Positions 8,427-63,789 of a DNA stretch of 64,000 bases are shown here, piece after piece. The notes beneath the pieces were generated by a model. That model was not told the DNA's origin. It made no database searches and saw only the letters and a list, made by a program, of their open reading frames with translations. Made by a program: the position numbers and the translations under genes. Within the stretch, counting starts at the first letter, position 1. Every line of letters begins with the position of its first letter. Origin of the DNA: Mycolicibacterium parafortuitum (GTDB taxonomy: Bacteria > Actinomycetota > Actinomycetes > Mycobacteriales > Mycobacteriaceae); assembly GCF_002086815.1 (NCBI RefSeq), contig NZ_MVID01000001.1, forward strand, positions 434,001-498,000, read 5' to 3'.

Positions 8427-8427
8427 G

Positions 8428-10698
8428 ATGGCCACGATCGACGACCGCCTGGACTACGTGCTCGGCAAGAAGGCCGCCGACCCATTGGAGGAGCAGTTCG
8501 GGCTGCGCACCGTCGGCGACCTGCTGCGGTACTTCCCGCGCAAGTACAGCGACGCGATGACGGTGCGCGGCGAGGGCGAGGAACTCGACCTCGAAGAGGG
8601 TGAGCACGTCACGTTCGTCGACGTGATCGCCAAAGCCGAGGTCAAGTGGGCCAAGAATCAGCGGTCGCGCGAGTACCTCGTCGTCACGCTGCGCGACCGG
8701 CGGCCGAAGGTCACCGCGACGTTCTTCAACCCGAAGTATCTGAAGAAGACCCTCATCGAGGGCACCAAGGTGATGTTGTCGGGGGAGGTCGGCTACTTCC
8801 GCGGCACCATGCAGCTGACCCATCCGGCGTTCATGGTGCTCGATTCGCCGTCCGGTAAGACGTTCGGCACGAAATCGCTGACGTCGATCGCGGCCGCCAC
8901 CGACGCCACTGGCGACGACCTGCTCGCCGAGTTCGAGAAGGACTTCTTCCCGATCTATCCGGCGAACTCGAAGGTGCAGACGTGGGACATCTACGCCTGC
9001 GTCCGGCAGGCCCTCGCGGTGCTCGACCCGGTTCCCGAGACGCTGCCCGAATGGTTTGTGCGCGAACACGATCTGATGTCCGAGGACCAGGCGTTGAGGG
9101 CGGTCCACGTCAGCGTCAACGAAGCCGAGCGCAACCGCGCGATCGAGCGGCTGACGTTCGACGAGGCGGCCGGTCTGCAGTGGGGGCTGGTGAGCCGCAG
9201 GCACAGTGCGCTCGCGGCGTCGGGGCCGCCCGCCGCCCGCCGGGACGGCGGGCTGGTCACCCAGATGACGGCTCAGTTGCCGTTCGAACTGACCGCGGGG
9301 CAACGCGAGGTCCTCGCCGTGATCTCCGAGGAGCTCAGCGCCACCAGGCCGATGATCCGGATGCTGCAGGGTGAGGTCGGCTCGGGCAAGACCGTCGTGT
9401 CACTGCTGGCGATGCTGCAGATGATCGACGCCGGCTATCAGTGCGCGTTGCTCGCGCCGACCGAAGTGCTTGCGGTGCAGCATGCTTCGTCGATGAGGGC
9501 GATGCTCGGTGCGCTCGCCGGCGCCGGTGAGCTCGGCGGCGCCGAGAACGCGACCCGGGTGGCGCTGCTGACCGGGTCGATGTCGGCGGCACAGAAGCGT
9601 GATGCCCGCCGGGAGATCACCTCCGGGGCGGCGGGCATCGTGATCGGCACGCATGCGCTGCTGCAGGACGCCGTCGAATTCGACAACCTCGGCATGGTGG
9701 TCGTCGACGAGCAGCACCGGTTCGGTGTCGAGCAGCGAGACCGGTTGCGCGCCAAGGCACCCGAGGGCATCACACCGCATCTGCTGGTGATGACGGCGAC
9801 CCCGATCCCGAGAACGCTGGCGTTGACCGCCTACGGAGACCTGGAGACCTCGACGCTGCGCGAACTGCCGCGCGGACGCCAGCCCATCAAGACCAGCACG
9901 ATCTTCCAGACCCAGAAGCCGACCTGGTTGGCCAGGGCGTGGGAACGCATCAACGAGGAGGTCGCGGCCGGGCGACAGGCCTACATCGTCGCGTCACGCA
10001 TCGACGAGGACGACGAGGACGAGAAGGCGGGCAAGGCCAAAGCGAAGAAGGCGACCGCGAAAGTACGCGACAGCGATGACGACGACAGGCTGCCGCCACC
10101 GGTCACGGTGGTGGACCTCCTCGCCGGGCTGCAGCGCGGCCCGCTGAAGGATCTGCGGTTGGGGCTGATGCACGGCCGGCTCTCCGGCGACGAGAAGGAC
10201 GCCGTGATGGGCGCGTTCCGCGCCGGGCAGATCGACGTGCTGGTGTGCACCACGGTGATCGAGGTCGGCGTCGACGTGCCGAACGCGACCGTGATGGTCG
10301 TGATGGACGCCGACCGCTTCGGGATCAGCCAGTTGCACCAGCTACGCGGCCGGATCGGCCGCGGACAGCACCCGAGCCTGTGCCTGCTGGTCACCAGGCT
10401 GCCCGAGGAGTCGAAGGCGGGGCAGCGGTTGACGGCGGTCGCGGGCACCCAGGACGGCTTCGAGCTCGCCGATCTGGACCTGCGGGAGCGCAGCGAGGGA
10501 GACGTGTTGGGGCTGTACCAGTCCGGGCGCCCGATCACCCTGAAGTTCCTGTCGCTGGCCCAGCATCTCGAGGTCATCCTGGCGGCCCGCGAACTGTGCG
10601 AGACGGTCTACGAGTCCGATCCACTGGACTCCGGGATGGCGGCGCTGTCGGCACCGTTCACCGAAGACGACAAAGTGCAGTTCCTGGACATGTCGTGA
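8428..10698 (+). CDS. recG: ATP-dependent DNA helicase RecG
   Basis: Branch-migrates stalled forks and recombination intermediates. The 756-aa product contains the N-terminal wedge/OB region (VTFVDVIAKAE..., TATFFNPKYLKKTL), Walker A GEVGSGKT (315-322), DEQH box (427-430), motif III TATPIPRTLAL, and the C-terminal helicase QLRGRIGRG with the EGDVLG/RecG TRG-like end. An unusual charged insertion rich in D/E, then A/K, lies near residues 524-556, between helicase motifs. It is translationally coupled to the upstream FakA-like gene (1-nt gap), and the next gene overlaps its stop as GTGA. Confidence 0.96.
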   Translation: MATIDDRLDYVLGKKAADPLEEQFGLRTVGDLLRYFPRKYSDAMTVRGEGEELDLEEGEHVTFVDVIAKAEVKWAKNQRSREYLVVTLRDRRPKVTATFFNPKYLKKTLIEGTKVMLSGEVGYFRGTMQLTHPAFMVLDSPSGKTFGTKSLTSIAAATDATGDDLLAEFEKDFFPIYPANSKVQTWDIYACVRQALAVLDPVPETLPEWFVREHDLMSEDQALRAVHVSVNEAERNRAIERLTFDEAAGLQWGLVSRRHSALAASGPPAARRDGGLVTQMTAQLPFELTAGQREVLAVISEELSATRPMIRMLQGEVGSGKTVVSLLAMLQMIDAGYQCALLAPTEVLAVQHASSMRAMLGALAGAGELGGAENATRVALLTGSMSAAQKRDARREITSGAAGIVIGTHALLQDAVEFDNLGMVVVDEQHRFGVEQRDRLRAKAPEGITPHLLVMTATPIPRTLALTAYGDLETSTLRELPRGRQPIKTSTIFQTQKPTWLARAWERINEEVAAGRQAYIVASRIDEDDEDEKAGKAKAKKATAKVRDSDDDDRLPPPVTVVDLLAGLQRGPLKDLRLGLMHGRLSGDEKDAVMGAFRAGQIDVLVCTTVIEVGVDVPNATVMVVMDADRFGISQLHQLRGRIGRGQHPSLCLLVTRLPEESKAGQRLTAVAGTQDGFELADLDLRERSEGDVLGLYQSGRPITLKFLSLAQHLEVILAARELCETVYESDPLDSGMAALSAPFTEDDKVQFLDMS

Positions 10699-11405
10699 GC
10701 CGCCGAAACACCGTATGGCTGGCGCTCGCGGCGCTGCTCGCGATCATCGTCGCCTACCAGACCGTCGAGCACTCGGCCCAGCGGTCCGCGCAGTACGTGG
10801 CCGACGCCGACGTGCCCACCGTCGTTCCCGGAGCCGACGTGCTTGCCGGCATCGCCGAGGTACCCGCGCGGATCCGCACGGGCGACTACCGGCGCGACGC
10901 GTTCGGGGATGCCTGGACCGACGACACCACCGCCCCGGGCGGACGCAACGGCTGCGACACCCGCAACGACATCCTCGACCGGGACCTGATCGAGAAGACC
11001 TACGTCGCGATCTCGCGGTGCCCCACCGCGGTGGCCACCGGTGTGCTGCTCGATCCGTACACCAACGCCAGCGTGGCATTCACCCGTGGTGCGCAGGTCG
11101 GCGCCGCGGTCCAGATCGACCACATCGTGCCGTTGGCGCTGGCGTGGGATCTGGGCGCGCGCAATTGGACTCAGGAGATGCGGGTGCGGTTCGCCAACGA
11201 TCCGGCCAATCTGCTCGCCGTCGCGGGCGGCGCGAACCAGGACAAAGGAGACAAGCCCCCGGCGTTGTGGATGCCGCCGAACGGGGCGTTCCATTGCCAG
11301 TACGCGATGCAGTTCGTCGAGGTGCTCCGCGGTTACGGACTGCCGGTCGACGCGCCGTCGGCGCCCGTGCTGCGCCAGGCCGCCGAGACGTGCCCCCGCG
11401 GCTGA
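10695..11405 (+). CDS. HNH endonuclease-family (DUF1524-like) exported or membrane-anchored protein
   Basis: 236 aa. An N-terminal hydrophobic segment (residues 8-20) acts as signal or anchor, and the rest is predicted outside. The HNH-type core is visible as GxxVQIDHIVPLALAWDLGARNW (D142, H143), FANDPANLLAVAGGANQDKGDKPP (N172, N181, K184) and the ending WMPP. Such GmrSD/DUF1524-like secreted nucleases are common in actinobacteria; the substrate is unknown. The GTG start overlaps the recG stop by four bases. Matches the position of Rv2972c. Six bases separate it from the convergent efeB-like gene. Confidence 0.82.
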   Translation: MSRRNTVWLALAALLAIIVAYQTVEHSAQRSAQYVADADVPTVVPGADVLAGIAEVPARIRTGDYRRDAFGDAWTDDTTAPGGRNGCDTRNDILDRDLIEKTYVAISRCPTAVATGVLLDPYTNASVAFTRGAQVGAAVQIDHIVPLALAWDLGARNWTQEMRVRFANDPANLLAVAGGANQDKGDKPPALWMPPNGAFHCQYAMQFVEVLRGYGLPVDAPSAPVLRQAAETCPRG

Positions 11406-11410
11406 GCCGG

Positions 11411-12604
11411 CTATTCGAGCAGCGACTGCCCGAGGTATCGGCCCTCGGGCACCCCGGGAAGGATCGCGAACACCGCCGACCCGATGGTGGTGATCCACGG
11501 GTTGAGAGCGTCGGATTGCGCCAATCGCCGTTGCACGGGCACGAACTGGCGTGCTGGATCGCGCTGGTACGCGGCGAAGATCAGCCCGGCGTCGGTGGTG
11601 CCGTGCTCGGGTGGATCGTCGTAGTTGTAGGCGCGCCGCAGGAACTGTTCGTCCTCGTTGCGGTGCCGGGCCAGCGCCACATGCGAATTCGGCGGAATCA
11701 CAAGGATTCCGTTCTCCGATGCTTCGAGGTCCGGTTCGTCGAACTCGTTGCGGCCGGTCAACGGGGCGCCGTTGTCCAGACGCCGTCCGACGGTCAGTTC
11801 CTTGCTGTCACGGTCGAGTTCATCCCAGGTGTCGAGTTCCGCCCGGATCCGCCGCAGCACGAGTACGGTGCCGCCGGCGAACCACGGGTGCACCGACCCG
11901 TCATCCCACACGTGACGCGCGAACTGCGCGGGTTCGCGCAGGTTCACGGTGCCGTCGATCTGACCCATCAGGTTGCGCATCGTCGTGCCGTCGGCAGCGG
12001 CGCCCCGTGCGGTCCGGAATCCGCTCTGCCGCCACCGCACCACGGTCATCGCGCGGACGTTCTTGAGCAGCACCCGCGCGGCGTGTGCGACGACGATCGG
12101 GTCGTCGGCGCAGATCTGCACCAGGATGTCGCCACCGCTGAAGCGCGGTTCCAACCGGTCGGTGCGGAACTCGGGCAGGTCGTCGACCGGGCACCGATGC
12201 CGCAGCCCGATCCGGTCGAATCCGCTGGGCCCGATCCCTACCGTCACGGTCAGTCGCGCCGGCCGGTGAGCGAGTTCGGGTTCGGTGTCGGCCAGCGCCG
12301 GCTCGCCGCGGGTCAACCTCGCCGCGTCGGTGCTCCACAGCTTCAGCACCGCCGCCAGCGTGTCCCGGGCCGATCGGGTCCCGTCCGGCACCAGGTCCAG
12401 GGCGACGAACAGTGCGTGCGCCTGCGGGGAGGTCGCGACACCCGCCTGGTTCGGGCCGTGGAACGGCTCCGTATCCGTCCCGAACTCCGTTGTCGGCGAG
12501 GCGGATTGCGCGGAGCCGCACTGGGTGAGCACGGATGCGGCCGCCACGGCGGCGCCTCCGGTGAAGAGGCGCCGCCGGTTGACCGTCCAGCGGTCGTCAG
12601 CCAT
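11411..12604 (-). CDS. Dyp-type heme peroxidase, EfeB-like, Tat-exported
   Basis: 397 aa. The N-terminus has a twin-arginine motif (VNRRRLFTGG) followed by a hydrophobic stretch and LTQCGSA, which resembles a lipobox, so a Tat-exported lipoprotein is plausible. Family marks are HGPNQAGV, GGDILVQICADD, the catalytic-aspartate motif LMGQIDGTVN (usually GFxDGT), the proximal heme histidine in PPNSHVALAR, and FLRRAYNYDD. EfeB/DypB proteins oxidise dyes or take iron from heme. No efeU/efeO is nearby. The ATG at 12604 overlaps the upstream PCuAC gene by eight bases; a GTG at 12616 is the alternative. Confidence 0.88.
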   Translation of the reverse strand: MADDRWTVNRRRLFTGGAAVAAASVLTQCGSAQSASPTTEFGTDTEPFHGPNQAGVATSPQAHALFVALDLVPDGTRSARDTLAAVLKLWSTDAARLTRGEPALADTEPELAHRPARLTVTVGIGPSGFDRIGLRHRCPVDDLPEFRTDRLEPRFSGGDILVQICADDPIVVAHAARVLLKNVRAMTVVRWRQSGFRTARGAAADGTTMRNLMGQIDGTVNLREPAQFARHVWDDGSVHPWFAGGTVLVLRRIRAELDTWDELDRDSKELTVGRRLDNGAPLTGRNEFDEPDLEASENGILVIPPNSHVALARHRNEDEQFLRRAYNYDDPPEHGTTDAGLIFAAYQRDPARQFVPVQRRLAQSDALNPWITTIGSAVFAILPGVPEGRYLGQSLLE

Positions 12605-13100
12605 GGCCGTGCCCACCGGGGGCGTACTCTTCGTCGGCGCCGACGAAGTCCCGCACCTGCGCTGTGACCGGTATCCGCGTCCCGTCCTCGAAGAGCACCG
12701 TGACGGACACGTCGTCGCCCGGTCGAAGCGGCGCCGTCAGATCCATCAACATCAGGTGATCGCCGCCGGGCGTCAGTTCGTGCGAACCTCCGGCCGGGAT
12801 GGTGATGCCGCCGAGTTTGGGGCGCATCGTCGCAACCCCGTCCGGACCGGCGGCCACCTCGTGGACCTCGACCCGGCCGGCTGTGGGTGAATCCCCGCCG
12901 ATCACGACCGCATCCCGATCTCCGGCATTGGTCAGGTTGCCGAACATCGCCGTCATGCCGGTATCGGTCGCGGCTGCCCACGGATCTTCGACGGTCACGG
13001 CGGCCGCCGGGGTCGGGGCGCCGCTGTCGCCGCCCGCGGTGCACCCGGTGAGCACCACCGCGGCGGCCACGATCAGGGCCGTGATCTTGTTGTCACGCAT
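12597..13100 (-). CDS. PCuAC (DUF461) periplasmic copper chaperone lipoprotein
   Basis: 167 aa with a lipoprotein signal (hydrophobic core then VVLTGCTAGG). The mature part contains VEDPWAAATDTGMTAMFGNLTN and the Cu(I)-binding H...M...H.M pattern: VEVHEVAAGPDGVATMRP followed by GGDHLMLMDL. A His/Gly-rich tail (GGHGHG) closes the protein. PCuAC proteins deliver copper to extracytoplasmic cuproenzymes. The ATG follows AAGGAG and overlaps the stop of the upstream PepSY gene by eight bases; its own end overlaps the peroxidase start, so the three genes are translationally coupled. Confidence 0.9.
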   Translation of the reverse strand: MRDNKITALIVAAAVVLTGCTAGGDSGAPTPAAAVTVEDPWAAATDTGMTAMFGNLTNAGDRDAVVIGGDSPTAGRVEVHEVAAGPDGVATMRPKLGGITIPAGGSHELTPGGDHLMLMDLTAPLRPGDDVSVTVLFEDGTRIPVTAQVRDFVGADEEYAPGGHGHG

Positions 13101-14520
13101 GAGAATTCTCCTTCCGCCGCTTGGTCGCGGCCAGTGTGAGATCGACGACGAGGAACGCCGCCAGAGACAGACCCAGCAGCGGCAGGAACCACCCGATCGC
13201 GACGGCCGCGGCGACGATCCCGACCCGCGCCGGGACGGGGAGACGCCGGAACCCGCCGCGGCGCGGCGCTCTGCCCACCGCCCAGCCGGATCCACGAGTG
13301 GGCCTGCGCTGCCACCACATTCGATAGCCGCGCACGATCACCGTGAGCAGTCCGACCGCGACGGCGAGCAGCAGCGCCTGGTTCAGCCAGCCGAACAGGA
13401 CGCCCATGTGCGCACGGATGCCCCAGTCGGCGAGCTTGGCCATCGTCGAGTAATCCCGGCGGTAGTCGACCACCGCGGTGACGCCGAGATCGACGGCGTC
13501 CACCGCCGCGGCGTTGGTGGTCCACCGGTACGGCCGGTCGATCTCGGTGACGGTGACGGCCTCGCCGTGGGCGGCGGGCAGGGTGAGCTCGACGGGACTG
13601 CGCACCCCGGCATCGGCGGCTGCCGACAGCACGCCCGCGTAATCGACCGATGCCGCATCGATGGCCGGGTGCGTCGCCGGGCCACCGTGCCCGGCGTGCC
13701 CACCGTCTCCTGTGATCACGGTATCCAGTTGCGGCCGTTGCCAATTCATGGCGGCTCTGATGTCGCTGACATGCGCCCCGGCGTACGTCGACCAGGTGAT
13801 CCCGGTCGCCGACAGGAACAGCAACCCGGCCAGCAGCCAGACCCCGGTCGCGCCGTGCCAGCTCAGCGTCCGGGAGCGGCCGCGGGCCGTGAGATCCGGC
13901 ATCACCACGCGGTGCGTGCGTCCGGGCCGGCGATCACGGGCGGCTCTGATCAGCCACAACCACAGCCCGCCCAGCGCAACCACCCACAGCCACGACGCCG
14001 CGAGTTCGCTGTAGATGCGCCCCGGCTCACCGAGGTTGAGATGGCGGTGCAACCCGTCGAGCCAGGTGCTCACCGGCAGGTACCCGAGCCAGGTCTGCTC
14101 GTCGCCGAGTACCCGTCCGGTGTACGGGTCGACGAACACCGCGCGCAGCAGGTCGTCCGCGAGGGCGGGGTCGGCGAAATAGACACGCGTGGAGTCCGCA
14201 GGCTCGGCGGCGGGCCGCAGGCCGGTCATCGTCAGCTGCGGGAACGCCGCTCGGGCCGCGGCCACCTGCTCCTGCAGCGGCAGCGCCGCGGGCGCGGGTG
14301 GCACCGACAGCAGGTCGCGGTACACCACGCGCTCGATCGTCGGCGCCGCCGCGTACAGCGCGCCGGTGACCGCGGCGACCGCGAGGAACGGCCCGATCAG
14401 GATGCCGGCGTAGAAGTGCAGACGCACCAGCAGCGCCCGCCGGTGGTGCGGTGGGGGCGGCGCGTGCCGCGGAGGCGCCGCGGCGGCGCGGGTTTCATGG
14501 ATGTCATCGGGAATGGTCAT
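13093..14520 (-). CDS. PepSY-associated TM helix protein (PiuB/iron-reductase-like)
   Basis: 475 aa. A transmembrane helix follows HRRALLVRLHFYAGILIGPFL; two periplasmic PepSY-like stretches (FVDPYTGRVLGDE and the later TEIDRPYRWTTNAAAVDAV) alternate with further helices (WLWVVALGGLWLWLI, GVWLLAGLLFLSATGITWSTY, LNQALLLAVAVGLLTVI and a final LVVDLTLA). Conserved histidines (LHFYAG, LHRHLNLG, LSWHGATG, HMGVLFGW) could ligate heme or metal. Related proteins sit in siderophore, heme or copper uptake operons. The ATG at 14520 lacks a good SD; a GTG at 14565 is possible. Coupled to the PCuAC gene. Confidence 0.82.
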   Translation of the reverse strand: MTIPDDIHETRAAAAPPRHAPPPPHHRRALLVRLHFYAGILIGPFLAVAAVTGALYAAAPTIERVVYRDLLSVPPAPAALPLQEQVAAARAAFPQLTMTGLRPAAEPADSTRVYFADPALADDLLRAVFVDPYTGRVLGDEQTWLGYLPVSTWLDGLHRHLNLGEPGRIYSELAASWLWVVALGGLWLWLIRAARDRRPGRTHRVVMPDLTARGRSRTLSWHGATGVWLLAGLLFLSATGITWSTYAGAHVSDIRAAMNWQRPQLDTVITGDGGHAGHGGPATHPAIDAASVDYAGVLSAAADAGVRSPVELTLPAAHGEAVTVTEIDRPYRWTTNAAAVDAVDLGVTAVVDYRRDYSTMAKLADWGIRAHMGVLFGWLNQALLLAVAVGLLTVIVRGYRMWWQRRPTRGSGWAVGRAPRRGGFRRLPVPARVGIVAAAVAIGWFLPLLGLSLAAFLVVDLTLAATKRRKENSHA

Positions 14521-53863: not shown

Positions 53864-55207
53864 TCATGCCCCCCGGACGGCGACCCCGCGGAGCACGGTG
53901 TCGCGCGCGAGGATCAGCGCGCTCCGCACGCCGATCTCCTGCAGGATGTTCTCCGGAATCCACTGCTCACCGATGATGCACCGGGTCAGCATGTCGGTTC
54001 CGGCGTTGTCGACGTGGATCTCGCCGCTGCGTATCCCCTCGGACAAAAGCGCTTTCATCTGACGGATCCGGGTGGTGAACGACCACGCGGGGTTCGCTGA
54101 GTCTGGGGGCGACTGCCGCAACCATGCCAGCTGGATGCGGAACTCGTCGGGAAAATGGTCGAGCGCGTTGATGTTGAGCCAGCTCAGGGCGTCGAGTTTC
54201 TCCAGGGTGCTGGACTCCGAGCGGACGATGTCGGTCCACGCGCCGCCGACCTTGAGGCCGAACTCGAGCATGATCGACATCAGCAGCTCGTCCTTGGAGC
54301 CGATCACTCGATAGACGGTGCCGGTGCCCAGCCCCGCGGCCGAGGCGATATCGCGGATCGTCGTCATCTCGTAGCCTCGGCGGCCGAACTCGGAGCGGGC
54401 GACCGCACGCACGTGCGCGGCCTTCAGATCGGTGTCGCCCTCGGCGTCGTCCCAGCCGGCGATGACCTTCTCGGCGACCGCGAACGCTGCCGATCGGTCG
54501 AGGTCCTCATCGGAGGGCGGTTCGGCGGCGAGCCCCTGCAACGCGATCCGGCACTTGAGGGTGGCCAGTTGGTCGACGGGGGCGTTGTGCCGGATGACGT
54601 CGAGGCCGACATGCAACATGCTCTGGCACAGGCGATCGGCCAGCGTGGGCAGGTCGACGTCGGAGCGGATGTCGCCGCTCCAGCGGCCTGCCCGCAACGT
54701 CTGCAGCATGGCGGCCTGGATCTTCGTCGGCTGGCGCGCGGTCAGTTCGATCAGTTCGGGATCGTTGCTCGGGGCCTCATAGAACGACATCTGCAGCGCA
54801 GCGCGATGTTCGACCGCGCACCGGGCGATCGCGCACCCCAACTCGGTGATCCGGTCGGCCACGGTGCGAGAGTCGGCATCGTCGATCCGTTGCAGCGCGA
54901 GATCCCCGATCCGGTCCAAATCCGTGTGGTAGAGCCGGATCAGCTCGATGAGGATGGCCTCTTTGGAAGCGAAGTGGTGGTACAGGCTGCCGGCGAGAAT
55001 TCCTGCGGCATCGGCGATCTGCTGGAGTGAACTGCGCAGCCCGGAGGTGGCGAAGACGGTGTTCGCCGTTTTGAGGATCTCCGTGCGCCGGGTCGCATCT
55101 GCGGCCGGTGAATCGGACACCGCGGCGAGGTGGGCAGAGGGTTGCCGCTTCCTGGGGGCGGGACGCCCCCGCTTGGAGTTAGGCCCTGCGTTGTCGGCGC
55201 CGGCCAT
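53864..55207 (-). CDS. Tandem TetR-family regulator (two complete DNA-binding domains)
   Basis: 447 aa, about twice normal TetR length. HTH 1 spans residues 59-80 (SSLQQIADAAGILAGSLYHHFASKEAIL) followed by a ligand/dimer domain to ~255; HTH 2 spans 281-302 (TTIRDIASAAGLGTGTVYRVIGSKDELL) followed by a second ligand domain. A basic N-terminal tail (KRGRPAPRKRQ) precedes the first. It is a natural candidate to bind the GAACRAATATTWGGT elements in this cluster. Located 58 bp downstream of an SDR gene on the same strand, so probably autoregulated through the divergent promoter. ATG at 55207 chosen. Confidence 0.9.
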   Translation of the reverse strand: MAGADNAGPNSKRGRPAPRKRQPSAHLAAVSDSPAADATRRTEILKTANTVFATSGLRSSLQQIADAAGILAGSLYHHFASKEAILIELIRLYHTDLDRIGDLALQRIDDADSRTVADRITELGCAIARCAVEHRAALQMSFYEAPSNDPELIELTARQPTKIQAAMLQTLRAGRWSGDIRSDVDLPTLADRLCQSMLHVGLDVIRHNAPVDQLATLKCRIALQGLAAEPPSDEDLDRSAAFAVAEKVIAGWDDAEGDTDLKAAHVRAVARSEFGRRGYEMTTIRDIASAAGLGTGTVYRVIGSKDELLMSIMLEFGLKVGGAWTDIVRSESSTLEKLDALSWLNINALDHFPDEFRIQLAWLRQSPPDSANPAWSFTTRIRQMKALLSEGIRSGEIHVDNAGTDMLTRCIIGEQWIPENILQEIGVRSALILARDTVLRGVAVRGA

Positions 55208-55265: not shown

Positions 55266-56237
55266 TCATTTCCCCGGTTCGGGGAACGCGACTTCGGCAT
55301 CGTCGGGCATGGCGCTGATTCCGCGCCGGTGGCACACCTGCAGCACCTCGTCGACGATTGAGTCGGGCACGATGAACTTCTCTGTCGACGACACCGCGTC
55401 CAGGTTCGCCTCGATGTCCTCGGCTTTCGGTTCGGCGCCGTCGCCGGCCAGCCATCCGTCGCCGAGACCGACGAACACCCGTGCGTACCGGCCCGCGCAG
55501 GCCGAGTAGTTGCGGTGGCTGAACGGGCAGTTCCGGCTGGCCAGGAAGGTCACCAGTGGGACGACCAGTTCGGGGCGGATGGCGCGCATGAAGCCGGACT
55601 CGGCGAGAAACCTCTCGTCCCTGACCGTCTCGCTGACCATTCGCGAAAAGCCAGTCGGCAAAACCGCATTGGATGCGATGCCGTGCGCCGCGCCCTCGAT
55701 GGCGATGACGTTGGAGAGGCCGACCAGACCGGTCTTGGCGGCGGCGTAGTGTGCCTCCATCGGCTGGCCGAAGTTGCCCGCCGACGAGGAGATGAATACG
55801 AACCGGCCGTACCCCTGTTTCCTCATTACGGTGTAGGCCGGCCGGCTCAGAAAGAACCCCCCGTCGAGATGGACGGCGAGCATACGGCGCCAATCGTCGG
55901 CCGAGAGTTGTTCGAAAGGAATCGAATTGAAGATGCCTGCGTTACTGATGACCACGTCGAGCCGCCCGAAAGTCGCGACGGCACAGTCCACGATCGCCTG
56001 GCCCCCCTCGGGGCTGTCCACCGAATCGCAAGAGGCGACGGCCCGGCCGCCGGCGTCGATGATCTCGTCGACCACGTGATCGGCCACGGCGGCGTCCGAA
56101 CCGGCCCCGTGCATGGTGCCGCCGAGGTCGTTGACCACCACCGCAGCTCCCCGCCTCGCCAAGTCGAGAGCGTAGAGGCGTCCCAGCCCGCGCCCGGCGC
56201 CGGTGACCACCGCGACCTGGCCGGTGAAGTCGATCAT
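55266..56237 (-). CDS. Short-chain dehydrogenase/reductase (3-hydroxyacyl/steroid type)
   Basis: 323 aa. Cofactor motif TGAGRGLG (12-19), VVVNDLGGTMHG (as in multifunctional 17-beta-HSD4-like SDRs), NAG (99-101), catalytic Ser (151/152) and YxxxK (Y164, K168). The C-terminal ~80 residues form an extra segment beyond the SDR core (EPKAEDIEANLDAVSSTEKF). NAD-dependent oxidation of a hydroxyl group on an acyl-CoA or steroid-like substrate is inferred. The ATG follows GGAGG by eight bases. Divergent from the VWA gene; its promoter overlaps that gene's operator. Confidence 0.9.
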   Translation of the reverse strand: MIDFTGQVAVVTGAGRGLGRLYALDLARRGAAVVVNDLGGTMHGAGSDAAVADHVVDEIIDAGGRAVASCDSVDSPEGGQAIVDCAVATFGRLDVVISNAGIFNSIPFEQLSADDWRRMLAVHLDGGFFLSRPAYTVMRKQGYGRFVFISSSAGNFGQPMEAHYAAAKTGLVGLSNVIAIEGAAHGIASNAVLPTGFSRMVSETVRDERFLAESGFMRAIRPELVVPLVTFLASRNCPFSHRNYSACAGRYARVFVGLGDGWLAGDGAEPKAEDIEANLDAVSSTEKFIVPDSIVDEVLQVCHRRGISAMPDDAEVAFPEPGK

Positions 56238-56291: not shown

Positions 56292-56320
56292 TTGACTCCG
56301 ATGGGTCCGAACCTTACGGT
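56292..56320 (+). promoter_or_regulatory. SigA-type promoter of the VWA-MoxR operon
   Basis: TTGACT (56292-56297), 17-base spacer, TACGGT (56315-56320). Predicted start point about 56327, inside the GAACGAATATTTGGT element. Consensus-quality -35 with ideal spacing, unusual in mycobacteria. Confidence 0.7.
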
Positions 56321-56339
56321 GGAACGAATATTTGGTCAA
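56311..56339 (-). promoter_or_regulatory. SigA-type promoter of the SDR-TetR operon (opposite strand)
   Basis: On the minus strand TTGACC (56339-56334), 17-base spacer, TAAGGT (56316-56311). It faces and overlaps the rightward promoter: its spacer and -35 contain the GAACGAATATTTGGT element, so one bound repressor would block both directions. Confidence 0.65.
56322..56336. promoter_or_regulatory. Candidate operator GAACGAATATTTGGT, copy 1
   Basis: 15-bp pseudo-palindrome with an AATATT core (GAAC-n-AATATT-n-GGTC), one base after the -10 of the rightward promoter. Thirteen of 15 bases are identical to the element at 58993-59007. AT-rich against a ~70% GC background. Confidence 0.65.
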
Positions 56340-56367
56340 CGACGACGAGGCGGACGCGGAGGCGCGA

Positions 56368-58053
56368 GTGGCCGACGAGCCGGATCACAAGGGGTATCCA
56401 GGTCTGACGATGCTGGCCTCCGCGCTCGCCGGGCGGCCGATGTCGGTGGCGGCCACGCCGCCGGGGCAACCGCCGTGGACCGACGGTCAGACGGTCTTCG
56501 TGGACCCCGCCGCCGCGCCGCGGGACACACTGCGCACGGTCGCGGTGCAGGCCTCGCTGATCGCGGCGGGCAGCCTCGACCCCGACGTGCTCGGTGCGCT
56601 GACGCGACGGCCCAAGACGGCGACGCGCTATCTGGCGGTCGAGGGTCACCGCGCACTCGTGGCCAACGAGGATCTGCTGCCGGGCCTCGTCGGCGGCCTC
56701 GCCGACCACCGCGTCGCGGCCCGCAGTGATTCGGCGGCCGCGTCGCTGGCGATCGCATCGGGTAAAGACCTCGTCGACGAGCCGCCCGGGGTTTTCGGCG
56801 TGCTGGCGCCCAAGAAGGTGCTGTCCGCGGGGCGCACGGGCAGGCAGGTCGATCACGAGGCCGCCGGACACGTGCCCCGCAACCGCGACGACAAGCGTGC
56901 GCTCGAGGAACTCGACGACGGCGAGGTCGACGACACCGACGATCCCGACCTGTTCAGCAGCCCGGTCGGCGGCGGCGGATTCATCGGGAAGTGGCTGAAG
57001 AAGATGCTGTCGTCGTCGCGTAAGACGGGCAGCGGCGACGGTCCGCCCGGCGCCGATTCGCCGACGCACCGGGTCAACTCGGTGCGGCGCGGGGCGAACG
57101 CGGTGGCCTCGTTGGCGTCGGCCCCGTCCGAGTCGGGCGCCGACGCCGAGAGCCCCGGCTTCAGCTATCCGGAATGGGATGTCGGGCGCAGGGCCTACCG
57201 ACTGGGCTGGTGCACGGTGCGTGAGGTGCCGCCTTCGGTGAAACCCGCTGCGGCCCAAGACATCGATAGGGTGATCGGGGTGCGCAGGCCGCTCGCGCGG
57301 CTCGGGATGGGACTGCATCGCCGTCACCGGCAGTCGCAGGGCGACGACATCGACATCGACGCGGCGGTCGAGGCACGGGTGGAGGTCAGGGCCGGTTCGA
57401 CACCCGAGGAGAACGTGTACCTCGACAGTCTCCGCCGTCGCCGTGACCTGTCGGTCCTGCTGTTGCTCGACATCTCCGGATCCACCGCCGAGGCCGGCTC
57501 GGCGGGCCGCACCGTGCACCAGCAGCAGCGTGAGGTGGTCGCCCACCTCGCCGTCGCGCTGCACGACCTCGGTGACCGGGTCGCGCTGTATGCGTATTAC
57601 TCGCAGGGTCGCAAGGACGTCACGGTGGTGCCGGTCAAGCGCTTCGACGAGCACCTCGACGCCGCGGTCAGCAGGCGTTTGAACAGCCTTGAACCCGCGG
57701 CATATTCGCGTCTCGGGGCGGCGATCCGGCACGGGTCCGCGGTGCTCGAGGCGCGTGGTGGCACCGCCAGGCGCCTGCTGGTGGTGCTCTCGGACGGGCT
57801 GGCCTACGACCACGGATACGAGCGGGCCTACGGCGCCGCCGATGCGCGGCGGGCATTGACCGAGGCGCGCAGGCGGGGTGTGGGCTGTGTGTGCCTGACC
57901 GTCGGTGCGAGCACCGACACCGCGGCGCTGCGCTCGGTGTTCGGTAGCGCGGCGCACGCGATGATCGGCCACCCCGACCAGCTCGCCGGGGTGATCGGAC
58001 CGATCTTTCGGTCCGCGTTGCGCGCCGCCGAGGTGCGGCGCCGCGTCGCGTGA
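56368..58053 (+). CDS. VWA-domain protein, NorD/CobT-like activator
   Basis: 561 aa from the GTG at 56368 (GGAGG five bases upstream); a TTG at 56332 is in frame but lies in the operator. N-terminal half: helical/low-complexity with a 'FSSPVGGGGFIGKWLKKML' stretch. C-terminal half: von Willebrand A domain with MIDAS DISGSTAEAGS (D368, S370, S372), LSDGLAYDHGYE and TVGASTDTAAL. NorD/CbbO-like VWA proteins work with a MoxR ATPase to insert cofactors into or remodel a metalloenzyme. Here the ATPase follows directly, but no nitric oxide reductase or Rubisco is near, so the client is unknown. Confidence 0.85.
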   Translation: MADEPDHKGYPGLTMLASALAGRPMSVAATPPGQPPWTDGQTVFVDPAAAPRDTLRTVAVQASLIAAGSLDPDVLGALTRRPKTATRYLAVEGHRALVANEDLLPGLVGGLADHRVAARSDSAAASLAIASGKDLVDEPPGVFGVLAPKKVLSAGRTGRQVDHEAAGHVPRNRDDKRALEELDDGEVDDTDDPDLFSSPVGGGGFIGKWLKKMLSSSRKTGSGDGPPGADSPTHRVNSVRRGANAVASLASAPSESGADAESPGFSYPEWDVGRRAYRLGWCTVREVPPSVKPAAAQDIDRVIGVRRPLARLGMGLHRRHRQSQGDDIDIDAAVEARVEVRAGSTPEENVYLDSLRRRRDLSVLLLLDISGSTAEAGSAGRTVHQQQREVVAHLAVALHDLGDRVALYAYYSQGRKDVTVVPVKRFDEHLDAAVSRRLNSLEPAAYSRLGAAIRHGSAVLEARGGTARRLLVVLSDGLAYDHGYERAYGAADARRALTEARRRGVGCVCLTVGASTDTAALRSVFGSAAHAMIGHPDQLAGVIGPIFRSALRAAEVRRRVA

Positions 58054-58104
58054 CGCCGAACGGACTCAGTGCACCGCAACGACGCGGGCGAGGGAAGGAA
58101 CACG

Positions 58105-58965
58105 ATGGGCAGCGACACCCGGTATGAATCCGCGATCGCCGACAAGAACGGCGCGTCCACGCGGGCACAGAACCGGCCGTACTACACGCCGGTGGGCAAC
58201 GAGGAGGCGGTGTTCCGGGCCGCCTACCGGCAGGGCCTATCGATCGTGCTGAAGGGCCCGACGGGCTGCGGCAAGACGCGCTTCGTCGAGGCGATGGCCC
58301 ACGACCTCGGCAGGCCGCTGATCACCGTCGCATGCCACGACGATCTGACCACCGCCGACCTGGTCGGGCGGTACCTGCTGCGCGGCGACGAGACCGTGTG
58401 GGTGGACGGCCCGCTGACCCGCGCCGTGCGCGAGGGTGCGATCTGTTATCTCGACGAGGTGGTCGAGGCCCGCCAGGACACCACCGTGGTGCTGCATCCG
58501 CTCGCCGACTACCGCCGCCAGCTCCCGATCGAACGGCTCGGCGTCACGCTGGACGCCGCGCCGGGATTCGGTCTGGTGGTCTCCTACAACCCGGGCTACC
58601 AGAGCGTGCTCAAGGATCTCAAGGACTCCACGCGCCAACGCATGGTCGCCATCGAGTTCGGTTTCCCCGCACCGGAAATCGAGGAGTCCATCGTCGCCCA
58701 CGAGGCTGGTGTCGGACGCGAGACCGCCGCCGCACTGGTGCGGTTCGGGCAGGCGATCCGCAGGCTGGAGACAGGGGGGCTGCGTGAGGTGGCCTCCACC
58801 CGTGTGCTGATCGCGGCGGGCCGGCTGACCGCCGAGGGGCTGAGCCTCGGCGAGGCGGCACTGGCCGCGATCGCGGGCCCGCTCACCGACGACGCGACGG
58901 TGGGCCGCGGGCTCGCCGAGATGATCGATGTCTATCTCGATACCGGGACCGGCGCCGGTGATTGA
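58105..58965 (+). CDS. MoxR-family AAA+ ATPase (NorQ/CbbQ type)
   Basis: 286 aa. Walker A GPTGCGKT (51-58), Walker B AICYLDEV (D117, E118), ACHDDLTTADLVGRYLLRGD (CbbQ/NorQ signature), VVSYNPGYQ sensor 1 and a C-terminal helical lid. Hexameric remodelling ATPase expected to act with the preceding VWA protein. The ATG at 58105 follows AGGGAAGGA. The stop codon sits within the -35 of the next promoter, so the following genes can be started separately. Confidence 0.92.
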   Translation: MGSDTRYESAIADKNGASTRAQNRPYYTPVGNEEAVFRAAYRQGLSIVLKGPTGCGKTRFVEAMAHDLGRPLITVACHDDLTTADLVGRYLLRGDETVWVDGPLTRAVREGAICYLDEVVEARQDTTVVLHPLADYRRQLPIERLGVTLDAAPGFGLVVSYNPGYQSVLKDLKDSTRQRMVAIEFGFPAPEIEESIVAHEAGVGRETAAALVRFGQAIRRLETGGLREVASTRVLIAAGRLTAEGLSLGEAALAAIAGPLTDDATVGRGLAEMIDVYLDTGTGAGD

Positions 58966-58990
58966 CGCTGCCCGACCGCGCCGCTAGGGT
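58962..58990 (+). promoter_or_regulatory. SigA-type promoter before the binding-protein operon
   Basis: TTGACG (58962-58967, overlapping the MoxR stop codon), 17-base spacer, TAGGGT (58985-58990). Same layout as the promoter at 56292-56320. Confidence 0.7.
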
Positions 58991-58992
58991 CT

Positions 58993-59007
58993 GAACAAAT
59001 ATTAGGT
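58993..59007. promoter_or_regulatory. Candidate operator GAACAAATATTAGGT, copy 2
   Basis: Two bases after the -10, i.e. at the predicted start point, just as for copy 1. Differs from copy 1 at only two of 15 positions. Confidence 0.65.
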
Positions 59008-59059: not shown

Positions 59060-60175
59060 ATGTCCTACGAGAGCACCGCGGAGCCCATCAAGGTCGGCTA
59101 TCTGATGGACTTCACGCTCCCGCCGGGATTTCCCGACGAGTTGTTCGCGTCGTTCACCCGGACATTCGAGTTGGTGTTCGCCGAGGCGGTCGAACAGGGC
59201 CTGATGGACCGCCCGGTGCAGATGATCTACCGCGAGGTCGAAGGGCTGCCGAAGGGTTCGGTGAAGGCGGTGATCGACGCCTACGGCGAACTCGTCGACG
59301 AGGGTGCCCTGGTGGTGTTCGGGCCGAACATCACCGACAACTGCGTGCCGCTGCGCGAGGCGATCGAGGAGCGGTTCAAGGTGCCCGCGATCAGCGTGAC
59401 CGGAACCGACGACTGGCTCGGCGAGTGGACGTTCGCGTTCCCGCAAGGGTCGATGACCGATGAGCCGATCTTCCTGGCCGACCTCGTCGCCAAGCGCGGC
59501 CTCAGCGAGATCGGCGTGCTCGTCGAACAGAGCCTGATCGGTGAAAGCTATCTGAAGAACCTGCGAACCGCATGCCGACGCAAGGGAATTCGCATCGTCG
59601 CCGAGGTCGAGATCGCACAGACCGCGCAGGACACCGACGCCGCCGTACAGACGCTGCACGAAGCCAAGGCCGAGGCGATCGTCCACCTCGGTTTCGGTTT
59701 CGGCGTCGTGTTCGTCAACCCCGCCCTGGAGAGCCTCGGCTGGGATCCGCCCCGGTTCACCACGACGGCGTTCCAGAACGCATGGGTCAACCCGATCATG
59801 TGGAACGCGTTCATGGGGTGGGTCGGCGTCGACCAGTACGACGAGGAGAACCCGATCGGGCAGGCGTTCCTGGACCAGTACGCCGCGGCCTACGACGGCA
59901 GCCGGCCCGAGTACTGCGTGACCGTCGTGAACCGCGATGTCGCCGCGACCCTGGTGCGGGCCTTCACCGACGCCCATCCACTGAGCCCCCGCGGGGTCAA
60001 GGAGGCACTCGAGCGGGTCAAGATGCTTCCCGCCGCGTCCGGAGCGCCGGGAACCCGCGTGTCCCTGGGTAAATGGACCCGGCGCGCATGGATGGGCGCC
60101 GGCTATCTGGTGGCCCGCACACTCGACGCCGACGGGGTGAACTCGCACCTGGTCGACCGGTTCGGGCAGGCGTAG
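59060..60175 (+). CDS. Periplasmic-binding-protein-fold (Leu/Ile/Val type) protein lacking a signal peptide
   Basis: 371 aa, similar in fold to type I ABC amino-acid/amide binding proteins (IKVGYLMDFTLPPGFPDELFASF, LVVFGPNITDNCVPLREA, VPAISVTGTDDW, EIGVLVEQSLIGESYLKNLR, DAAVQTLHEAKAEAIVHLG). The N-terminus MSYESTAEPIKVGYLMDF has no signal sequence and no lipobox, and no permease or ATPase genes adjoin, so export seems unlikely. A cytosolic sensor or substrate carrier is my inference. GAGGAGG precedes the ATG. Five bases separate it from the AveC-like gene. Confidence 0.82.
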   Translation: MSYESTAEPIKVGYLMDFTLPPGFPDELFASFTRTFELVFAEAVEQGLMDRPVQMIYREVEGLPKGSVKAVIDAYGELVDEGALVVFGPNITDNCVPLREAIEERFKVPAISVTGTDDWLGEWTFAFPQGSMTDEPIFLADLVAKRGLSEIGVLVEQSLIGESYLKNLRTACRRKGIRIVAEVEIAQTAQDTDAAVQTLHEAKAEAIVHLGFGFGVVFVNPALESLGWDPPRFTTTAFQNAWVNPIMWNAFMGWVGVDQYDEENPIGQAFLDQYAAAYDGSRPEYCVTVVNRDVAATLVRAFTDAHPLSPRGVKEALERVKMLPAASGAPGTRVSLGKWTRRAWMGAGYLVARTLDADGVNSHLVDRFGQA

Positions 60176-60180
60176 CGGCG

Positions 60181-61308
60181 ATGACGACCCGGGAGGAGGT
60201 CGACACCGCAAACACCGAGACCACCCCGCGGAAGCGGCCCAACTGGGGGCGCTGGATCTCGCTGCTCGCGTGGCTCGGCTTCCTCGGGTTGTTCGCCGCG
60301 GTCGGGCGCACCGAGGTCGATCCCCGGGTGGCCAACCCGAACGTCGAGGGACGGCCGCGCCCGGTCGAGTTCCTGACCGGCTTCGACCACTGGCAGATCA
60401 TCCCCCAGGTCGGCGCGCTGCTGATGGTCGTGGTGCTGACCATCGTGTTCATCCGCGGCTGGCGCAAGAACCCGGGCAGCCCGGTGCTGTTGATGATGCT
60501 GGTGACCACGCTGATCGTGTGGCAGGACCCGATCATGAACTGGGCGCCGTACGCGGTCTACAACCCGATCCTGGTGCACTGGCCGGAGAACTGGCCGCTG
60601 ATCATGATGTCGCCGACGGTCGAGCCGTTCATCGTGTTCGGCTATGTGACGTTCTACTTCGGCCCGTACTTCCCGGCGATCTGGATCCTGCGCAAGTTGC
60701 AGGCCAAACACGGCCCGGAGTCGTTCGCCAGCAGGCACCCGCTGGTCAGCCTCGGCGGGCTGGTGCTGGTGATCGGCTTCATCTTCGACGCGATCCTCGA
60801 GATCAGCCTGGTCCGCACCGGCCTGTACATCTACTCGCAGGCCATCCCGTTCGGAACGCTGTTCCCCGGCACCACCTTCCAGTTCCCGCTGCTGTGGGAA
60901 TCGCTGTCGGTGACGTTCGTGATGATCCCGGCGGCGATCCTGGTCTACCGCGACGACACCGGTAAATCGGTGGCGGAGAAGCTCGCCGCGAAGGCGCGGC
61001 TGTTCCCGAAGCGACCGGTGCTGGGCACCTTCCTGGTGATGTTCGCGATCATCAACGTGTCGTACTTCGCGTACGGCTCCTGGTTCTGGGCGATCAAGGC
61101 CAGCGGGCTGGCCACCGCCGTCGCGTGCCCGTGGCCCTATCCCGAGGCGAAAGTCTTCGACCCGCAGGGCTATTTCGAGGAGAACGGCGCCGAGGGACCG
61201 TATTCGGTGGGCAAGTGGTCGACGTGGCAGTACGCGCTGCCCGACGGTCGACCCGACGTGGAACGGGGATCCAAGAGCATGAAATGCGCGACCGAGGGCA
61301 ACGAATGA
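60181..61308 (+). CDS. AveC-family (spirocyclase-like) integral membrane protein
   Basis: 375 aa, about seven TM helices: WISLLAWLGFLGLFAAVG, QVGALLMVVVLTIVFI, VLLMMLVTTLIVWQDPIMNW, FIVFGYVTFYFGPYFPAIWIL, LGGLVLVIGFIFDAILEISLV, LLWESLSVTFVMIPAAILVY and FLVMFAIINVSYFAYGSWF. Conserved acidic and aromatic residues (WQDPIMNWAPY, FDAILE) line the helices. AveC acts as a dehydratase/spirocyclase on avermectin; mycobacterial members are uncharacterised and often sit with P450s and dehydrogenases. Coupled to the next gene by an ATGA overlap. Confidence 0.78.
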   Translation: MTTREEVDTANTETTPRKRPNWGRWISLLAWLGFLGLFAAVGRTEVDPRVANPNVEGRPRPVEFLTGFDHWQIIPQVGALLMVVVLTIVFIRGWRKNPGSPVLLMMLVTTLIVWQDPIMNWAPYAVYNPILVHWPENWPLIMMSPTVEPFIVFGYVTFYFGPYFPAIWILRKLQAKHGPESFASRHPLVSLGGLVLVIGFIFDAILEISLVRTGLYIYSQAIPFGTLFPGTTFQFPLLWESLSVTFVMIPAAILVYRDDTGKSVAEKLAAKARLFPKRPVLGTFLVMFAIINVSYFAYGSWFWAIKASGLATAVACPWPYPEAKVFDPQGYFEENGAEGPYSVGKWSTWQYALPDGRPDVERGSKSMKCATEGNE

Positions 61309-62306
61309 CCGGGCAGCGCACGGTGCTGATCACCGGCGCGTCCCGTGGGCTCGGCTTCGCGTCGGCGGTTCGCCTGTATCGCGAGGGCTGGCGGGTGGTC
61401 GCCGCGATGCGTACCCCCGACCGCGGAATGCCGTTGCTGCGCGAGGCGACCGGCGCGGCCGAGGACGACGACCGGCTGATCGGTGTCACCCTCGACCTGA
61501 CCGACGCGTCGTCGATCGTCGCCGCCGCCAAGACGATCGACGAGACGGTCGGGGCGCCCTATGCGATCGTGCACAATGCCGGGATCTCGGCGACCGGGGT
61601 GGTCGAGGACACGGATGTCGCCCTGTGGCAGCAGATGTTCGCCACCCATGTGCTGGGTCCGGTCGCGTTGACGAAAGCGCTGCTGCCGTCGATGCGGGAG
61701 GCGGGCGAGGGCCGGATCGTGCTGGTGTCCAGTGCCAGTGGCGTGCGGGGTCAGCCGTCGATCGCACCGTATTCGGCGGCCAAGGGGGCGCTCGAACGCT
61801 GGGGCGAATCGATGGCCGGTGAGATCGCCCCGTTCGGTCTCGGGGTGACCGTTCTGGTCACCGGCACCTACGACACCGACATCATCACCGACGCGGGCAC
61901 CACCGACGACCGCAACTTCGCCGGCCCGTATGCCCGGATCTACCAGACGATGGATTCGCGGGGCCGGCTCGCGATGCGGATGGCCCGCCCCCCGCAGCGG
62001 TTCACCGACGGTCTGCTCAAGGCGTTGCACGACGACGGGTCGTTTCGCCGGCGCGCCGTCGGCCCCGACGCGGCGATGCTGGTGGTGTGCAACCGGGTGT
62101 TGCCCGCCGCCGGCATGCACCACATGTCGCGGCTCGTGATGGGGATCCCGAAGCAGGGCGCGATGCGCGGCGGGGCGTGGCCGCTGACGACCGCACAGCG
62201 CGCGATGGTGGCTGCGGCGAAAGTCGTTCCGCAGCCGGTGATGACGCGGTTGGCCTACGTCGCAGCGCGGCGAGTCGCGCGACAGAAGGGTACGACCGAT
62301 GGCTGA
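61305..62306 (+). CDS. Short-chain dehydrogenase/reductase with C-terminal extension
   Basis: 333 aa. TGASRGLG (10-17), NAG (90-92), catalytic Ser near 141-143 (VSSASG) and YSAAK (Y155, K159). The C-terminal ~100 residues extend past the SDR core and are basic (MSRLVMGIPKQG..., YVAARRVARQKG), perhaps for membrane or partner contact. Different subfamily from the leftward SDR. Overlaps the AveC-like gene by four and the aldehyde dehydrogenase by eight bases. Confidence 0.9.
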   Translation: MTGQRTVLITGASRGLGFASAVRLYREGWRVVAAMRTPDRGMPLLREATGAAEDDDRLIGVTLDLTDASSIVAAAKTIDETVGAPYAIVHNAGISATGVVEDTDVALWQQMFATHVLGPVALTKALLPSMREAGEGRIVLVSSASGVRGQPSIAPYSAAKGALERWGESMAGEIAPFGLGVTVLVTGTYDTDIITDAGTTDDRNFAGPYARIYQTMDSRGRLAMRMARPPQRFTDGLLKALHDDGSFRRRAVGPDAAMLVVCNRVLPAAGMHHMSRLVMGIPKQGAMRGGAWPLTTAQRAMVAAAKVVPQPVMTRLAYVAARRVARQKGTTDG

Positions 62307-63789
62307 GGGCGCCCACGAGCCGAGGATGCTGATCGACGGCAAGCTCGTCGACGGCAAGCTGGTCGACGGCAAGGCGGGCACATTCGTCAACATCAACCCC
62401 GCGACCGAGGAGGTCCTCGGCGAGGTCGCCGACGCGTCGAAGGCCGATATGCTCCGCGCGATCGACGCCGCGCGGCGGGCGTTCGACGAGACCGACTGGT
62501 CGACGAATCACCAGCTGCGCAAGCGGTGTCTCGAGCAACTCCACGACGCCCTGGAGGCCGAGAAGGAGGAACTGCGTGAGGAACTGATCCGCGAGGTCGG
62601 CGCCCCGCGGGCGGTCACCCACGGCCCGCAGCTCGACGCCCCTCTGGCCGACGGGCTGCGATATCCGGCCCGGCTGATCGAGACCTTCCCGTGGGAAACC
62701 GATCTCGGCGACATGGTGGTCTCGGTCACCGGTGTGAACACCACCAGAAAGGTGTGGCACGAACCCGTCGGTGTGGTCGGCGCGATCACCCCGTGGAACT
62801 TCCCGTTCGAGGTCGCGGTCAACAAGCTCGGCCAGGCGCTGGCGGCGGGAAACACCGTCGTGCTCAAACCCGCCCCGGACACCCCGTTCAACGCCACCAG
62901 GATCGGGCGGCTGATCGCCGAGCAGACCGACTTCCCGGCCGGGGTCGTCAACATCGTCACCGCGTCGGACCATCTCGTCGGCGAGGAGCTGACGCTCTCG
63001 CCGAAGGTCGACATGATCTCGTTCACCGGCTCCACCGCGGTGGGCAAGCGGATCATGGAGAAGGGTGCCGCGACGATGAAGCGGCTCTTCCTCGAGCTCG
63101 GCGGAAAGTCCGCGACGATCGTCCTCGAGGACGCGGATTTCAACACCGCCTGCCTGATCGGTATCGGCCCGCTGATGCACGCGGGCCAGGGCTGCGCCGC
63201 GCCCACCCGAATGCTGTTGCCGCGCTCGCGGTATGACGAGGGCGTCGCGATCCTGAAAGGTATCTACGAGAACATCAAAGCGAGCGACCCGCACGATCCC
63301 GGCACCCTGTGCGGACCGGTCATCTCGGCCAAACAGCAGGCCCGCATCCTCGGCTACGTCGGCAAGGGCGTCGAGGAGGGGGCGACGCTGCTGGTCGGCA
63401 GCACCGAGGCCCCGGCCCGGTTCGACAAGGGCTTCTGGGTCGACCCGACCCTGTTCACCGACGTCGACAACTCGATGACCATCGCGCAGGAGGAGATCTT
63501 CGGACCCGTGCTGGCGGTGATCCCGTACGACGACGAGGACGACGCGGTCCGGATCGCCAACGACAGCGTCTACGGCCTGGCCGGCAACGTGATGTCGAGC
63601 TCGCTGGAGCGGTCGCTGAGCGTCGCACGCCGGTTGCGAGCGGGGTTCATCGGCCTCAACGGCACCGCGGGCTACGGCGCGGACACGCCGTTCGGTGGCT
63701 ACAAGGACAGCGGGGTCGGCCGCCAGAACGGCGTCGTCGGGTTCGGCCAGTACACCGAGATCAAGTCCGTCGCCCACCCGGCCCAGTAG
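62299..63789 (+). CDS. NAD(P)-dependent aldehyde dehydrogenase
   Basis: 496 aa. TPWNFPF (N167), K190, FTGSTAVGK, the general base E266 in LELGGKS and nucleophile C299 in GQGCAAPTR are all present, so it should oxidise an aldehyde to its acid. The N-terminus contains an in-frame 15-bp repeat (LVDGK units at residues 16-25). Translationally coupled to the upstream SDR, suggesting consecutive alcohol-to-aldehyde-to-acid steps. A P450 starts 27 bp later. Confidence 0.95.
   Translation: MAEGAHEPRMLIDGKLVDGKLVDGKAGTFVNINPATEEVLGEVADASKADMLRAIDAARRAFDETDWSTNHQLRKRCLEQLHDALEAEKEELREELIREVGAPRAVTHGPQLDAPLADGLRYPARLIETFPWETDLGDMVVSVTGVNTTRKVWHEPVGVVGAITPWNFPFEVAVNKLGQALAAGNTVVLKPAPDTPFNATRIGRLIAEQTDFPAGVVNIVTASDHLVGEELTLSPKVDMISFTGSTAVGKRIMEKGAATMKRLFLELGGKSATIVLEDADFNTACLIGIGPLMHAGQGCAAPTRMLLPRSRYDEGVAILKGIYENIKASDPHDPGTLCGPVISAKQQARILGYVGKGVEEGATLLVGSTEAPARFDKGFWVDPTLFTDVDNSMTIAQEEIFGPVLAVIPYDDEDDAVRIANDSVYGLAGNVMSSSLERSLSVARRLRAGFIGLNGTAGYGADTPFGGYKDSGVGRQNGVVGFGQYTEIKSVAHPAQ
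62335..62376 (+). repeat. 15-bp in-frame repeat in the aldehyde dehydrogenase N-terminus
   Basis: GACGGCAAGCTCGTC, then GACGGCAAGCTGGTC, then the first nine bases again: two and a half copies encoding DGKLV-DGKLV-DGK. It lies in the variable N-terminal strand, so it is probably tolerated slippage. Confidence 0.75.

Follow-up and report, generated by a model that had tools for sequence, protein, structure and literature searches.

A conserved candidate operator shared by the promoters of a MoxR-VWA and AveC/P450 gene cluster and a predicted double TetR repressor in Mycolicibacterium parafortuitum

The gene cluster, its promoters and the shared element

The window (the whole stretch of 64,000 nucleotides analyzed here) ends in a cluster in which a short-chain dehydrogenase gene (SDR1) and the gene of a tandem, or double, TetR regulator lie on the minus strand, and genes for a VWA-domain protein, a MoxR-type ATPase and a binding protein (PBP) operon lie on the plus strand (Table 1). 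SDR1 lies 59 bp upstream of tetR and is likely cotranscribed with it, and the PBP operon extends past the window end to a second cytochrome P450 (P450b) and another SDR (SDR3). For tetR we infer a start at ATG 55207 (447 aa; the longest frame begins at 55300) and for the VWA gene, from a preceding GGAGG, a start at GTG 56368 (the longest frame begins at TTG 56332, inside O1).

Table 1. Genes, predicted promoters and candidate operators of the cluster, in window numbering
Feature	Position	Strand	Remarks
Tandem (double) TetR regulator	53864..55207	-	Two TetR_N stretches; relatives about 447 aa
SDR1, short-chain dehydrogenase	55266..56237	-	adh_short; order the same in many relatives
VWA-MoxR predicted promoter, TTGACT-N17-TACGGT	56292..56320	+	From sequence; 28/28 relatives
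SDR1-tetR predicted promoter, TTGACC-N17-TAAGGT	56311..56339	-	From sequence; 28/28 VWA regions of relatives
Candidate operator O1, GAACGAATATTTGGT	56322-56336	+	1 base past -10 of VWA promoter
VWA-domain protein	56368..58053	+	VWA, DUF58, VWA_CoxE
MoxR-type AAA+ ATPase, CbbQ/NorQ C-terminal domain	58105..58965	+	AAA_5, CbbQ_C
PBP operon predicted promoter, TTGACG-N17-TAGGGT	58962..58990	+	From sequence; 27/28 relatives
Candidate operator O2, GAACAAATATTAGGT	58993-59007	+	2 bases past -10 of PBP promoter
Peripla_BP_6 binding protein (PBP)	59060..60175	+	Domain match
AveC-like protein	60181..61308	+	PF17198; start read from sequence
SDR2	61305..62306	+	adh_short; start overlaps AveC-like stop in ATGA (from sequence)
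Aldehyde dehydrogenase (ALDH)	62299..63789	+	Aldedh; TIGR04284 below its cut-off
First cytochrome P450	63817..64000, continuing to 65043	+	Sequence past window
P450b	65040-66335		Past window end
SDR3	66332-67210		Past window end
Far-end single-domain TetR	67217-67876	-	Same cluster

The initial annotation had described two promoters of the same architecture, each followed by an AT-rich element, and on rereading the window sequence both promoters and elements were found with the sequences, positions and spacings that it gave, as was the identity of O1 and O2 at 13 of 15 bases in a window of 69.5% GC. The pattern TTGACN-N16-19-TANNNT occurs three times in the 64 kb, every time at the elements, twice on the plus strand and once on the minus strand through O1. 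This minus-strand promoter, an addition to the earlier description, has its boxes at 56339-56334 (TTGACC) and 56316-56311 (TAAGGT) and faces SDR1 (ATG 56237) and the tandem TetR. O1 lies within its spacer and extends three bases into its -35, and the promoter overlaps that of the VWA gene, the opposing -10 boxes having 56315-56316 in common. Mycobacterial TANNNT -10 boxes fall outside the E. coli-type consensus, and a stricter scan with that consensus recovered none of these promoters. The -35 of the PBP promoter overlaps the MoxR stop codon, and the stretch between MoxR and PBP showed no terminator-like site, so O2 may act on a promoter internal to a longer transcript.

At up to 3 mismatches the window holds three matches to the element (one of them O1 read backwards) against 0.32 expected, a number reached in 1 of 100 shuffles. 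The exact element is not scattered at random, as a scan of the whole 6.1-Mb genome returned 2 exact copies and 4 matches at up to 2 mismatches, counted with a pattern derived from the very sites later counted. Because the backwards-read pattern already gives 21 matches at up to 3 mismatches against 59 for the pattern itself, sites at that level say little. The two additional 2-mismatch sites were considered as further targets in this genome and rejected: one lies within a coding frame, and the other, just upstream of a minus-strand gene, has no recognized promoter. The latter (GAACAAATGTTTGGC; L113 8284, G000 C28:18284) lies about 80 bp upstream of a 444-aa frame, is overlapped by a called frame with a doubtful start and is possibly a chance match. 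Four 13-letter words from the core of the element, the O1 core of the window not among them, had no match in the literature text searched.

Conservation of the element and its linkage to the tandem TetR

We compared 80 loci around relatives of the tandem TetR, searching each gene from 200 bp before its start to 60 bp past it and counting as orthologues genes of at least 45% identity that retain their first 70 residues. The element proved to be conserved upstream of orthologues, being present at up to 2 mismatches before 28/28 VWA genes and 28/29 PBP genes. O1-type sites carry 1 to 2 mismatches in all 28 VWA cases, and the 29 PBP regions hold 24 exact O2-type sites, 4 with one mismatch and 1 with three. 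When intergenic regions were aligned on the element, its columns held 1.75 (VWA) and 1.92 (PBP) bits each, against 0.20 to 0.42 in the distal flanks. Both overlapping promoters recur in 28/28 VWA regions, and the PBP regions have the forward promoter in 27/28 and the reverse promoter in 0/28.

Loci whose TetR is at least 54% identical (group A; L073, with a partial TetR, was left out) contain 129 sites with no more than 2 mismatches, spread over 44 of 47 loci (none in L066, L067 and L077), and 59 of these sites start 0 to 3 bases past the -10 of a TTGAY-type promoter. Sixty column-permuted patterns gave a mean of 0.5 sites and a maximum of 3 in the same loci, and no site was found at this threshold in 24 loci around other TetRs (L087-L110 served as controls only).

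Before the operon-internal AveC, SDR2, ALDH and P450 genes the best match has 4 to 7 mismatches in 95 of 99 cases, and in the four exceptions (L070, L041, L051 and L063) the gene is positioned first behind a site; P450b likewise has an exact site in L070 and 4 to 7 mismatches in the other seven loci. In nine Mycolicibacter loci the counterpart of SDR3 is an SDR downstream of tetR (86 to 88% identical) preceded at a distance of about 59 bp by a 2-mismatch site of its own in 9/9, and the three remaining loci holding SDR3 (L035, L041, L054) lack an own site for it. The element follows genes, SDR3 carrying a site in the loci where it lies separately beside tetR. MoxR is preceded in 18/28 loci, but not in this genome, by a weaker site with 2 to 3 mismatches, mostly GAACAGATGTTTGTT; read by eye in the MoxR direction, the element falls in the spacer of TTGAAA-N17-TAGGGT in L033 and of TTGAAA-N17-TAGGCT in L049.

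Several loci merit separate mention. In L175 (G028; 7147-13535) the TetR match is intact, ALDH and P450 match over their full length, and VWA, PBP, AveC-like and SDR2 give partial matches, so that this cluster looks worn down; it keeps one-mismatch and exact elements. Divergent genes in L071 (6106-6239) and L077 (10585-10730) are flanked by variant words, CAACAAAAATTAGGTTAG and AATCAAACATTAGGTTGCC among them, which a related tandem TetR may use as operators. The Blastococcus loci L079, L083 and L085 encode tandem TetRs of 31% identity and share the word GAACGAATACTTGCT downstream of them; in L079 it precedes a gene that by eye resembles an Nramp metal transporter.

Of 98 genomes sampled from the genus, 55 have the tandem TetR, 55 have the exact element GAACRRATATTWGGT and 54 have both, and none has the element read backwards; the Fisher value of 1.9e-25 overstates this linkage because the genomes are related. 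Of the 103 exact sites, 92 have a tandem TetR match no more than 20 kb away. The sole genome with the TetR and without the exact element (G052) has a 1-mismatch site just upstream of its tetR, and the sole genome with the element and without the TetR (G005) is 84% complete, with its cluster on short contigs. In 201 genomes of the family, from 31 genera, TetR and element were each found in 15 and were common to 14; around the element of G249, which lacks the TetR, the 15 kb examined held no cluster gene.

Within the genus PBP and the TetR track the element equally well, the PBP gene being present in 54/98 genomes, all with the element (54 of the 55 element genomes), and it is therefore other cases that point to the regulator. 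Of the 16 group A loci that lack matches to VWA, MoxR, PBP and AveC, 14 still have sites. Outside the order, a scan of the 400 bp preceding the conserved domain, allowing up to 2 mismatches, found the element in 5 of 9 tandem TetR loci (9 of 10 matches, with G508:C209 left out), permuted patterns giving a mean of 0.003; the other four have no site, their best matches showing 3, 5, 6 and 6 mismatches. Three of the sites are exact, namely those of L167 and L168 (48% identity), which are surrounded by PBP-AveC-SDR-ALDH-P450 genes, and that of L171 (34% identity), around which no cluster gene was matched within 15 kb and whose site, 89 bp before the conserved domain, may fall inside the 5' end of the frame. 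The element stays with the tandem TetR even where the neighboring genes differ.

The regulator and related systems

The TetR_N DNA-binding domain was detected in two stretches of the tandem TetR (E 4.5e-24). In its structure model, built from a 37-row alignment (pLDDT 83.9, pTM 0.83), the single chain is predicted to form two TetR units that pack together into one asymmetric repressor. Among the matches listed, DNA-bound Mce3R was the best in both structure searches and alone aligns across both TetR units. The candidate operator is short and palindromic or nearly so and lies at the promoters that would be regulated, as is typical of the TetR family: the symmetric pattern RAMCNRATATYNGKTY has 72 exact sites in the 47 loci, 63 of them with unequal arms, and none in 24 control loci. 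The first recognition helix, SLYHHF, is present in 29/29 proteins listed and the second is variable; exact operators accompany quite different second helices in L167, L168 and L171. In the Aldersonia loci L066 and L067 (about 8240-8445) we noticed GAACAGAAGTTAGGT or GAACAGAATTTAGGT, plus CAACAAAAGTTAGGT, and a changed second helix, NPATVHR, possibly a case of operator-helix covariation.

Mce3R, a double-TetR repressor of M. tuberculosis (PDB 9b7y), is described in its report, which presents the structure as the first of its kind, as a single chain whose two unlike heads bind an asymmetric site, homodimers sitting on two duplexes (PMC11667970). The tandem TetR matches it structurally over the whole chain, at 16% identity in the aligned part. 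Upstream of mce3, Mce3R acts through a pair of asymmetric 25-bp sites that lie 53 bp from each other (PMC11667970), whereas the present system has one 15- to 16-bp near-palindrome per promoter, before VWA/P450-type genes. There is no mce3/yrbE3 operon beside the tandem TetR, its neighbors being SDR1, VWA, MoxR and PBP, and no Mce3R-type pair of 25-bp sites, the conserved block before PBP consisting of the 15 bp and the promoter boxes (the 3 columns after the element hold 0.39 bits). The first DNA-binding unit also resembles that of KstR2 (PDB 4w1u, 4w97), and one relative is automatically named KstR2; KstR2 is, however, a single TetR repressor of about 200 aa, and the 447-aa, two-unit tandem TetR falls outside that group. 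A literature search on AveC in mycobacteria, MoxR/VWA with TetR, and tandem TetRs returned Mce3R as the only natural double TetR, and motifs have been predicted for 30 conserved mycobacterial TetRs (PMC4482099).

The VWA-MoxR pair has the same domain makeup as NorQ/NorD, which NO reductase is reported to require for the insertion of its cofactor (PMC9976466). Unlike the NorQ/NorD setting, no NO reductase was found among the genes examined by domain search. By analogy, coregulation of the pair suggests that it may serve a client enzyme of this pathway.

A proposed regulatory switch

Our results lead us to propose, with a probability of about 0.84, that O1 and O2 are operators through which the adjacent double TetR represses VWA-MoxR, the PBP operon and SDR1-tetR together until released by a metabolite. 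Joint control of VWA-MoxR and the binding protein-AveC-SDR-ALDH-P450 genes, already suggested in the initial annotation, is supported by the conservation and the TetR linkage. The model builds on the computed element, promoter geometry, conservation and linkage, from which we infer binding, repression, autoregulation and ligand release. Three promoters would be repressed together, those of VWA-MoxR, PBP-AveC-SDR-ALDH-P450-P450-SDR and the divergent SDR1-tetR. At the VWA and PBP promoters bound repressor would cover the start point, because the element begins 1 to 2 bases past the -10. The position of O1 in the -35/-10 spacer of SDR1-tetR adds autoregulation to the model, as the regulator's own promoter would be blocked. 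Since two -10 bases are common to both face-to-face promoters, polymerase could occupy just one of them at a time. A pathway metabolite would then release the regulator, switching on the enzymes and the MoxR-VWA pair together. A more elaborate version is doubtful, in which the double TetR bridges O1 and O2, 2.67 kb apart, in a DNA loop around VWA-MoxR, the O1-bound protein picks between the exclusive face-to-face promoters, and the operator stays constant across actinomycete orders despite replaced target genes.

Binding by another regulator, such as the far-end single-domain TetR, appears quite improbable: this protein belongs to the same cluster and is present in 40 of 55 element genomes, but it is missing from 15 of those genomes, 54 of which have the tandem TetR, it occurs in only 3 of 80 fetched loci, and distant tandem TetRs have the element upstream without it nearby. 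On this distribution across element genomes and loci we rejected it as the binder. That the double TetR binds the element and instead activates, or has mixed effects from promoter to promoter, is no more probable. TetR-type activators exist, FasR being so named in NCBIfam, but positions just past the -10 or in the -35/-10 spacer suit repressors, and it is there that the element lies, 0 to 3 bases past the -10 at the sites counted above or in the spacer.

We think it very improbable that polymerase or the early RNA needs the element as part of the promoter or start region, with no dedicated regulator. Its distance from the -10 is fixed in the VWA and PBP promoters, as such a role would have it, but it also lies within the spacer of an opposite-strand promoter, occurs only twice in the genome and tracks one regulator. 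That the two promoters are alike by chance, or simply through common descent, might be imagined for two copies in the same neighborhood but is hardly credible, as the element columns are constant where the flanks have drifted and permuted patterns score near zero in group A and distant loci. A chance match was rejected on the window shuffles, genome counts and permuted-pattern controls.

The tandem TetR regulon is well supported, and its regulator is of an already known kind, the double TetR. It represents a second double-TetR subfamily, for which an operator is predicted, the regulon is defined and natural variants are numerous, and DNA reading by two unlike heads thereby becomes testable. 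Moreover, an uncharacterized AveC/P450/ALDH/MoxR-VWA pathway, which about half of the sampled genomes of the genus possess (54/98 by PBP), is tied to one predicted switch, and its inducer would point to the substrate.
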